This document shows, piece by piece, positions 10,519-21,700 of a stretch of 22,265 nucleotides of DNA; position 1 is the stretch's first letter, and each line of letters opens with the position of its first letter. Below the pieces are notes generated by a model. It made no database searches. It had not been told where the DNA came from and saw nothing but the letters and a program-made list of their open reading frames with translations. Both the position numbers and the translations under genes were made by a program. The stretch is from a virus, in IMG/VR virus record IMGVR_UViG_3300035228_001097, positions 1-22,265 of that record; one strand, given 5' to 3'.

Positions 10519-10606
10519 AAAAAAGGGTCCCCCGTTCCTCATAGGGCCGACAATAGGGTCAAACATGTCGGATGCAGCTCCACCAATACTGTGAGGTGGG
10601 GGACCC
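10519..10606 (-). terminator. Structured multi-helix RNA element between the gp32 gene and uvsX, ending in U6 (terminator or attenuator)
   Basis: On the minus strand, GGGTCCCCC (10606-10598) pairs perfectly with GGGGGACCC (10533-10525). Inside it, CCTCA (10596-10592) pairs with TGAGG (10541-10537), and CCGACA (10571-10566) pairs with TGTCGG (10552-10547) around a 13-base loop. The outer helix is followed at once by T6 (10524-10519), as in an intrinsic terminator, but the span between the outer arms is 64 bases, far larger than a normal terminator loop. It starts about 11 bases after the stop codon of the gp32 gene and ends 11 bases before the uvsX ATG. It is much more GC-rich than its surroundings. 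A role in terminating or attenuating transcription between the two genes, or in protecting the 3' end of the gp32 mRNA, is inferred. The pairing is directly visible. Confidence 0.75.
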
Positions 10607-18760: not shown

Positions 18761-21700
18761 TACGGTTTATAATCATTTAAGGTTGAACCGAGACCGACTC
18801 TCTTACTGTGAACTTTTTCTAAGTCCTCAATTTGTGTTGGGTCTGTTATGTCCTGTTCAGACTGTATTTCGTAAGTTAATGGGTCATCACTTTTTCTTCC
18901 TTTGAATCTTGAAGTTCTAACTTTTTCTTCTTTTGTTTCATCAAAGAATCTTTTAACTTTTCTTTCTATTTTATTCAAAATATTTTGTGGATACAGTATA
19001 CCGTCGTTTTTATAGATATCAATTATTTCTTGTTTTTTCTCTATTAATAATACAGATAAAATTTCACTTAATACAGTGATATCTACATTCAAAGAGTTAA
19101 AATTAATTGTGTCGTCTAATTTTGATACAAATCTGTCACTGTTTTTATCGAAATAATCAATACAGTGGTCGTATTCTTCATATAGTGACGTAAAGGTGAA
19201 TCCAACAAGTTCTGCTTGTTTTGGTGTGGGTGTATTGTCTTTAGGGAATTTACCATCACTATAATATTTTGTCATGTAATTTAATTTATCTAAAATTGGT
19301 GTTAGATTGTTACGTGATTCTGTCAACTCCTTTAATGCATTATTACTGAAAATACTATCTAATTTATCTTCTACTAATTCTCTTAATTTTGGTCTCAGTA
19401 TGTCATTTGATTTTACTATTTTATCTTCTGATAAAAATCTATCGAAGGATAACATAGTTGTAACATCTGAAGTTTCTATCGCCGAAACCATCTTCACTTT
19501 AAGTTGTGTAACATAAGAGTCAAGACTTTTTACCCTATCGTACTCACCGAATAAATTTATTGTCCTTGTACCAACGTTTGAACTGTTTACTATATAAGTG
19601 TTAATTGTTCTATAGTTGGGGGAGAATAGAAGTGAATGTACTTGTGGTCCGTATGATACTAAAACATTATCATATGATGTGACGTATTTTTGGAAATACT
19701 CATCCGTTTTACTAAAAACATCAGTCACAATATCAGTGTATGTAATGTTTGTTCCTGAATTAACCCCAATATATGTTCCTGCAACCACAGTATCGGAAGG
19801 TTCTATGTCTTCTGCAGATGGTGCATTACCTGTTGTTGCACCAATACTCTGTAGTTCCTCTAAAAAGTCTTTTGTAAATTCTTCGGTGGATTTACCGTCA
19901 ATATTTGATGTTGACACCGACCTTGGATCATACATTTCAGTATTTGCAAAGAAATTAGAAGATAATGCGTTTTGTAGTCTTTCTACTGGTTTTGACAGTC
20001 CCTGTCCTCCAATAAAGTTTACTTGTAATGTTACATTTGCCAACATTGGTTGTACCCCAATACCCTCAGGGTTTAAATCCCAAGTGGAATCGTCATAAGT
20101 TATATTAACATCTCTTATTACTACCTTAGAATGGTAAAAATCCCCTATTCTAATAACACAGATAGGTGGTGGACCAAAACTTGTATTCCTTGCCCTAAGA
20201 TCAAGGTCAGAGTTAAGACCTTTAATTGGTATTGTATCACCAGGTCTCACACATTGTAATAAGAAATTAAGTCTAGCATTCAACCCTTCAGGTGTCATAG
20301 AATGAAATGCGGGGTGGAAGTATTTTAATTTATCTTTTAAACTTTTAAACGTTACAGGAGAATCTTCCTCTAACATTTTGAAGTAATAACACTCAGACAA
20401 TGTCTTCATTATTATTTTCTTCATTTCATTTATTGGTGGTTTCTTTACACCTGGAACTTCAACATCCTCAGATGTTACTACAAATTTCGGTTGTTGGTCA
20501 GGATCAATAGGATCAGGTACAACATCAATAGGTTGTACTTCGAATTTAACTGTTGACTGTCTACAGTAGAATGTTACGGGGGCAGTTTTCTTAAGTCGAG
20601 TATTTGATCGTATTTCGTCGCTATGACAATCTACATTAGTGTCTCCCCCACCAAACTCATTGGCGTTTACTTGTTCATTTTCTCCTACACTTGTAAATAA
20701 ATAACTAATCTTTCCTTCCACATCAAAACCTAATTCTTTGAACGTATATTCATTACTTACATCGACCTCGGCAACACCATCGGCAGGAACTTGTGATGTC
20801 CAAGTTATTTCTTTAGAATTTTTAGATATACCTTTAACTATATCTCTGATTATACTGTGAGATCTTCTGAGTGATAATTTTACATTGTAATCATCTCCTG
20901 CGATTGATGAAGTACTACTTGTTGCACTCAACTTTATTTCTTTTATCTCACCATTTTCAATTCGTGTCTTTAACTCACTAATCTTGTCTGAGTATGCACT
21001 ATAGTTTTGGTCTAATTTAGAAAATGCGGTTGTCATTTTGTCCTTGACCAACTGAATCTTTGATTGGTCGATTACAATTTCTTCGTTTCCATAAATTACT
21101 TTCTTATCATTCTTTTTCGCTGCAGTAGGTGATCCTTGACCTAATAAGGTTAAACCCGTTTCTAAGTCAGTCATGTATTGACCTGTACCTCCACCATACA
21201 ATGTATTATATTGTGAGTAGACTTGATTATATGGTTTACCTTTTAATTGTGAACCCTCAATTCTTGGGATGTCATTTGGGAAGAATAATGTTATTTCTTG
21301 TTCTTCAGGATCTTGTGCTATGGGTTCTTGATCAATTGGTTCTATGTCCTCAGCATCTTCAGTATCAACTTTTAATTTTTTAATTGTTTCTTTGTCTGTT
21401 CCCGCTTCTAAATAATCTTTTATACTTTGTACGTCATCGTTTGTGAGTGTAGTGTATGTTCTTATAAGTGAATAGAAATCAATCTCCTCACACCCCGCAA
21501 AGAACGCATTTATATAATTGTCAGATTCTTCGTCCGACATGTCTTTGAATACTTTACTTACCATTAAATTAAGTATACTTGGGTGATCAACAATAACTTT
21601 AAAGGAAACTTGTCCCGATCTTTCAGTATTTTGATAGGTGTATATTGGTTCAGGTCGTCCTAAGAAATTATTACTTTCCCATTTTGCATTGTTTTGTTCA

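Follow-up and report, generated by a model that had tools for sequence, protein, structure and literature searches.

The stretch of viral DNA analysed here (the window, 22,265 nt) carries on its minus strand the genes of a gp32-like single-stranded DNA-binding protein and, after an intergenic gap of 110 nt, of a uvsX-like recombinase. The gap holds an element of 88 nt on the same strand, and 11 bases separate the end of its U6 tract from the ATG of uvsX. The first-pass annotation had described this element as a set of helices followed by a U tract, and all of the parts were found, on the minus strand: an outer helix, P1, with 9 of 9 pairs and a span of 64 enclosed bases, an inner extension CCTCA/TGAGG, the complementary strands CCGACA/TGTCGG of an inner hairpin, P3, and U6 (Table 1).

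Table 1. Features of the gp32–uvsX locus in the window.
Feature	Position	Strand	Basis
gp32-like ssDNA-binding protein, upstream gene, 286 aa	10618..11478	-	Pfam PF08804 gp32, 47.1 bits (cut-off 26.8); PHROG 1192 and 224
uvsX-like recombinase, downstream gene, 331 aa	9512..10507	-	PHROG 97 UvsX-like recombinase, E 1e-13; Pfam RecA 25.7 bits, narrowly under its cut-off (27)
P1 outer helix (putative terminator stem), 5' arm GGGTCCCCC	10606..10598	-	sequence; P1 kept in 16 distinct relatives
P1 (putative terminator stem), 3' arm GGGGGACCC	10533..10525	-	pairing check in relatives
P1 inner extension, 5' strand CCTCA	10596..10592	-	pairs with TGAGG, pair probability 0.99; CUC/GAG equivalents in relatives
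P1 inner extension, 3' strand TGAGG	10541..10537	-	sequence and pair probability
CCACC, could pair with the conserved GGUGG in a competing helix	10595..10599	-	CCCACC invariant in 16/16 clade members
Conserved single-stranded UGGUGGAG of the domain	10578..10585	-	invariant in the gp32–uvsX clade; UGGUGG nearly invariant in the wider family
P3, 5' strand CCGACA	10571..10566	-	P3 covaries in the wider family
P3, 3' strand TGTCGG	10552..10547	-	P3 covaries in the wider family
Conserved CCC (YCC) directly 3' of P3	10544..10546	-	comparison with the clade and wider family
U6 tract of the putative terminator, 11 nt before the uvsX ATG	10524..10519	-	sequence; hairpin and U tract in homologous gaps
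Recurring RNA domain, putative degenerate copy without the P2 hairpin	10543..10592	-	R2 and R3 scores; intact in sister phages L002-L013, L242 and L406

The element folds with a predicted energy of −36.9 kcal/mol, against −26.2 ± 3.0 for dinucleotide shuffles (z −3.6; 0/300 shuffles), but a stretch of 126 nt that includes the flanks reaches a z of only −1.9, and folding energy alone is therefore modest evidence. We regard the comparison with relatives as decisive. Each of the 16 distinct sequences of the window's clade (uvsX at least 87% identical) keeps the pairing of P1, and four pairs of this helix show both-sided exchanges (U-A/G-C, C-G/G-C/U-A, C-G/A-U and U-A/C-G); conserved helices with compensatory changes in the gp32–uvsX gaps of relatives are what the first-pass annotation had proposed to look for. 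RNAalifold was hampered by mis-aligned 3' arms in the clade alignment (A11), and P1 was therefore checked sequence by sequence. The inner hairpin CCGACA/TGTCGG was borne out in part: its strands are present, but it does not belong to the minimum-energy fold of the window, where its pair probability is about 0.3 and another fold competes; P3 is supported by the relatives.

In order to place the element in its phage group, we collected 157 loci with relatives of the gp32-like and uvsX-like proteins, giving 97 distinct gaps. A strict hairpin and U-tract test, whose U-tract rule was calibrated on enterobacteria whereas the hosts here are probably Bacteroidota, was passed by 74 of the 97 gaps compared with 3.3% of shuffles, and most of the gaps that fail miss only narrowly by eye. 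On this count the gp32–uvsX gap of this uncultured T4-like group has a conserved predicted terminator, behind which uvsX begins after no more than a short AT-rich stretch. The sequences of the window's clade are all metagenomic, and as a search of genome contigs found no relative of uvsX, no host was found.

P1 and U6 have the make-up of an intrinsic (Rho-independent) phage terminator, since the 9-bp GC-rich stem runs directly into U6 and its position is conserved in homologous loci across the group. The usual terminator loop is 3–20 nt, and 3–19 nt in the distant relatives, whereas the stem of the window's clade, and of this clade only, encloses 57–66 nt as a three-way junction. The earlier view that this is not a plain terminator hairpin is supported, in that a conserved multi-helix RNA does lie in the gap. 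As the outer helix is a predicted terminator at a site where most of the group has an ordinary one, the element is best described as a putative terminator with an inserted domain. With 11 nt between the U tract and the start codon, uvsX probably depends on transcription that reads through the element, one of the two routes that the first-pass annotation had named; the other, a promoter inside the element, could be an alternative.

Within P1, the intact members of the clade carry a domain of fixed order, hairpin P2 - U - GGUGGAG - hairpin P3 - (Y)CC, which reads in sequence as P2, UGGUGGAG, P3 (CCGAC..GUCGG) and CCC. P2 is GATG-GAAA-CATC and becomes GACG-GAAA-CGTC in L002 and L267 (U-A to C-G). 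The window and its nearest relative, L001 (uvsX 98% identical), have lost P2 and retained P1, and the copy of neither is significant alone; UGGUGGAG, P3 and CCC are present in the window. Its copy scores 13.7 bits with covariance model R2 (E 0.026 in its own record) and 12.9 bits with model R3 (E 1.7 in 652 kb), the latter not significant alone, and its membership of the domain would rest on synteny with the intact sisters and not on its own score. With P2 gone, what is left of the domain in the window may remain solely as a piece of the terminator. A second weak R2 match in the window (20144-20190, plus strand, 12.4 bits) is antisense to a long open reading frame and was judged to be chance.

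A first pattern taken from the clade and scanned through IMG/VR returned the same arrangement after quite different genes. This pattern biased the first matches towards CCGA/UCGG, which we countered by fetching relatives of the small gene that often follows the domain and reading their upstream regions. The constants of the wider family are a hairpin with AAA before its 3' strand (35 of 36 sequences), U, GGUGG(A/G), 3–8 nt, a second hairpin and (Y)CC, while the stems vary freely. Over 36 sequences, none of them from a gp32–uvsX gap, 9 of 11 pairs change on both sides (56 cells), a value matched by 0–1 of 500 shuffles, and the signal collapses in slid controls; both P2 and P3 covary in these non-gp32 copies. 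An extension of P3 through GGA/YCC pairing is plausible but unproven, because GG-CC hardly varies. Model R3, built from the 36 sequences, was then run on 652 kb of gp32/uvsX loci, and its top 11 matches are gp32–uvsX gaps of the clade (17.7–24 bits; E 0.001–0.08, rough values from a short calibration). The intact clade copies are recognised as the recurring domain by a model built without them. Scores of sequences preselected by pattern are easily over-read, as such sequences reach 20–28 bits with R2. A pattern scan of 84,980 bacterial and archaeal genomes gave 70 matches, which we judged to be chance; nearly all are GC-rich and the rest look coding. A literature search on the motif string returned nothing relevant.

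Most phage records scanned hold one strong copy of the domain, even at 200–326 kb, although this count was made on partly incomplete records. Phage G001, for example, has a plain hairpin in its gp32–uvsX gap and a strong copy elsewhere (G001:167930). The upstream genes are mutually unrelated (a glutathione-peroxidase-like protein, a 5'-3' deoxyribonucleotidase and several without assignment), and their stop codon often lies 1–5 nt before P2. All 39 wider-family copies are followed by a predicted terminator, which starts 0–7 nt behind the motif in 37 (by script) and was identified by eye in the other two. The next gene, if on the same strand, mostly has its own late-promoter-like TATTTA box after the terminator, and in three loci (L256, L525 and L527) it is convergent, so that control of read-through cannot be the general function of the domain. 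This context is that of a 3'-terminal RNA domain and not of a switch for the downstream gene. The small protein encoded downstream of many copies (~99 aa, GSYMAKQQLFTIATLAYKMWEQMEDGEQLEDWMESK; L188:6440-6739) has about 140 relatives and is frequent and well conserved in this set of phages; it matched no PHROG or Pfam family, and no relative was found in INPHARED.

We also compared the element and the domain with known RNAs. In keeping with the first-pass annotation, which could match the element to no named RNA family, none of 4227 Rfam families, searched at gathering and relaxed thresholds, reached its cut-off on either. The wcaG RNA (RF01761) gave weak matches (16–26 bits, against a gathering cut-off of 42 bits) to copies of the domain elsewhere: in 26 phage genomes, the motif locus accounts for 11 of its 12 best matches (17–26 bits, the best on the domain at 26.1 bits), and the wcaG model has no match on the window element. 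The wcaG motif is known from T4-like cyanophages and marine metagenomes, and Weinberg et al. (2010, PMC2864571) put it forward as a candidate riboswitch. Its consensus reads GUUUC-hairpin-UGGUGCGGA-hairpin-gCC, followed by a second GUUUC-hairpin-UGGCGaGCC. Like the domain, which also occurs in T4-like phages, its 5' half has the order GUUUC/UUU, hairpin with AAA before the 3' strand, U, GGUG.GGA, hairpin and CC, and this module (hairpin - U - GGUG - GGA - hairpin - CC) is found in intact wider-family copies and not in the window's, with P3 itself skipped in the local wcaG and R3 alignments. Unlike wcaG, which lies in 5' UTRs, the domain lacks the second module ending in UGGCGaGCC and sits at predicted transcript ends, directly followed by a terminator. 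In the reverse direction, the best whole-genome match of R3 falls on the wcaG-like locus in S-RIM4, Syn1, S-ShM2, Vibrio phage nt-1 and Mycobacterium phage MrMagoo; in four further phages it does not. In S-ShM2 (GU071096, motif at about 164,943–164,985) two hairpins flank UGGUGGAG, and CC and a terminator follow. Intact copies of the domain appear distantly related to the cyanophage wcaG RNA; since neither the wcaG cut-off is reached nor the second module present, we read the domain as a new wcaG-like subfamily and do not file it as a member of wcaG.

The GOLLD RNA (RF02032), another phage non-coding RNA, co-occurs with the motif in 8 of 24 scanned phage records, typically 0.8–3.6 kb away on the same strand, but it is about 410 nt long, is not homologous to the motif by any model used and is absent from the window and from many motif-bearing phages. 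In L170, L176, L188, L190, L199, L202, G011-G013, G016-G018, G020 and G021 the motif lies about 0.8–3.6 kb downstream of GOLLD on the same strand. In MrMagoo (NC_053515; L535:1155-1568) a wcaG/motif-like hairpin-UGGUGGA element, located between tRNA genes and GOLLD RNA, starts 2 nt after a tmRNA match that is unannotated in the record. In S-CREM1 (OP535465; L536:748-845) the wcaG, manA and abiF RNAs all lie inside a tRNA gene cluster, which fits their annotation as cis-regulators poorly. The consensus of GOLLD, in its 3' part (UACuuccggaAAAcggaaGUGGA), and that of manA (GGUGGUG) include stretches that resemble the hairpin-AAA-UGG part of wcaG and the motif, possibly a building block shared by phage RNAs. 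The T4 stable RNAs rnaC and rnaD (species 1 and 2) are likewise small RNAs of unassigned function in a T4-like phage; they were rejected as relatives, as there is no R3 match and no UGGUGG element in the T4 cluster.

Comparison shows the position of the predicted terminator, the helices and the recurrence of the domain, and we consider it fairly probable that the element ends the gp32 message as a leaky intrinsic terminator and that its stem encloses a worn copy of a recurring wcaG-like RNA domain. RNA polymerase leaving gp32 would mostly stop at the U tract, and the fraction reading on would make uvsX, with its start codon 11 nt downstream; gp32 would then be made in excess of UvsX, the element lowering uvsX relative to gp32. 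Less certainly, the enclosed domain might fold compactly at the 3' terminus of the RNA, where it could bind a protein or resist exonucleases, or it might be released from the 3' UTR as a small RNA. For the domain elsewhere, our best guess is a folded 3' end or a small RNA derived from the 3' UTR. The simpler possibility that the enclosed sequence is passive filler, with only the stem and the U tract of importance, has in its favour that most relatives have a plain hairpin in the gap and that the window and L001 keep P1 without P2; it is nevertheless quite unlikely, given that UGGUGGAG, P2 and P3 are kept in intact clade members and that copies of the domain at other sites covary strongly. A coding origin of the GC-rich island was rejected as very improbable. 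The frame after the gp32 stop is indeed open in the window, reading ...LGPPPHSIGGAASDMFDPIVGPMRNGGPFFKNIIWQ*, but indels in the relatives are not multiples of three (gap lengths 99–115) and the RNA pairs are kept by compensatory changes.

Regulatory readings of the element have to be weighed against its context. The first-pass annotation had suggested a candidate attenuator, RNA sensor or mRNA 3'-end stabiliser that sets the ratio of gp32 to uvsX. The domain is not specific to this locus: it occurs about once per genome beside many other genes, and in at least three cases no same-strand gene follows, which makes a dedicated gp32:uvsX sensor unlikely. An attenuator, in which GGUGG would first pair with CCACC of the 5' arm as an antiterminator and later be displaced by the 3' arm, with uvsX tuned by a shift in this balance when a ribosome finishes gp32 or when a protein (gp32, for instance) binds, is attractive in that CCACC and GGUGG are invariant and complementary in 16 of 16 clade members although the arms differ, that RNAalifold chooses this helix (on an alignment with imperfect 3' parts) and that prefix folds form it in several members. 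At full length, however, P1 wins over it by 6–11 kcal/mol, and an invariant helix cannot show covariation; the wider family, which has no upstream CCACC, conserves GGUGG just as well, which argues that GGUGG is not selected for this pairing, and three wider-family copies have no downstream gene on their strand. We therefore consider an attenuator unlikely. A riboswitch-like cis-regulatory aptamer that senses a metabolite and controls the downstream gene, as put forward for cyanophage wcaG (PMC2864571), appears more improbable still: the likeness to wcaG is weak but position-specific and some cyanophage wcaG-like copies precede sugar-epimerase genes, but in the Bacteroidota-type phages the downstream gene varies and mostly has its own late-promoter-like box after the terminator or is convergent, and the element of S-CREM1 and MrMagoo has tRNA/tmRNA genes as neighbours. 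Tentatively, and with considerable doubt, the domain may instead be a widespread class of phage RNA that works in trans, as a small RNA or in a ribonucleoprotein and not as a riboswitch, and was captured inside the gp32–uvsX terminator in the window's clade. Its members would then number about one per genome, often with tRNA, tmRNA or GOLLD genes nearby, and occur in uncultured Bacteroidota-type T4-like phages, cyanophages (including the wcaG RNAs), Vibrio phage nt-1 and Mycobacterium phages such as MrMagoo.

The comparison turns an isolated oddity into a testable RNA family that is supported by covariation, absent from Rfam as such and present at about one copy per phage genome, and links it to the unexplained wcaG RNA. 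The variable context of the domain (3' UTRs, tRNA arrays, convergent genes) counts against the accepted reading of wcaG-like RNAs as cis-regulatory riboswitches, and the presence of the same arrangement in the cultured cyanophage S-ShM2 makes the question testable. For gp32 and uvsX, the leaky-terminator reading suggests a simple way to obtain binding protein in excess of recombinase.

Among the plain gp32–uvsX terminators, those of L025, L041, L043, L046, L050, L062, L064 and others share a common loop, GGMGAUAACGUCA (for example GGGGUGGAGAUAACGUCAGAAGCCCC), and another group shares GGUGAAAUAUCC; a conserved loop, as in these two groups, is unexpected for a simple terminator.
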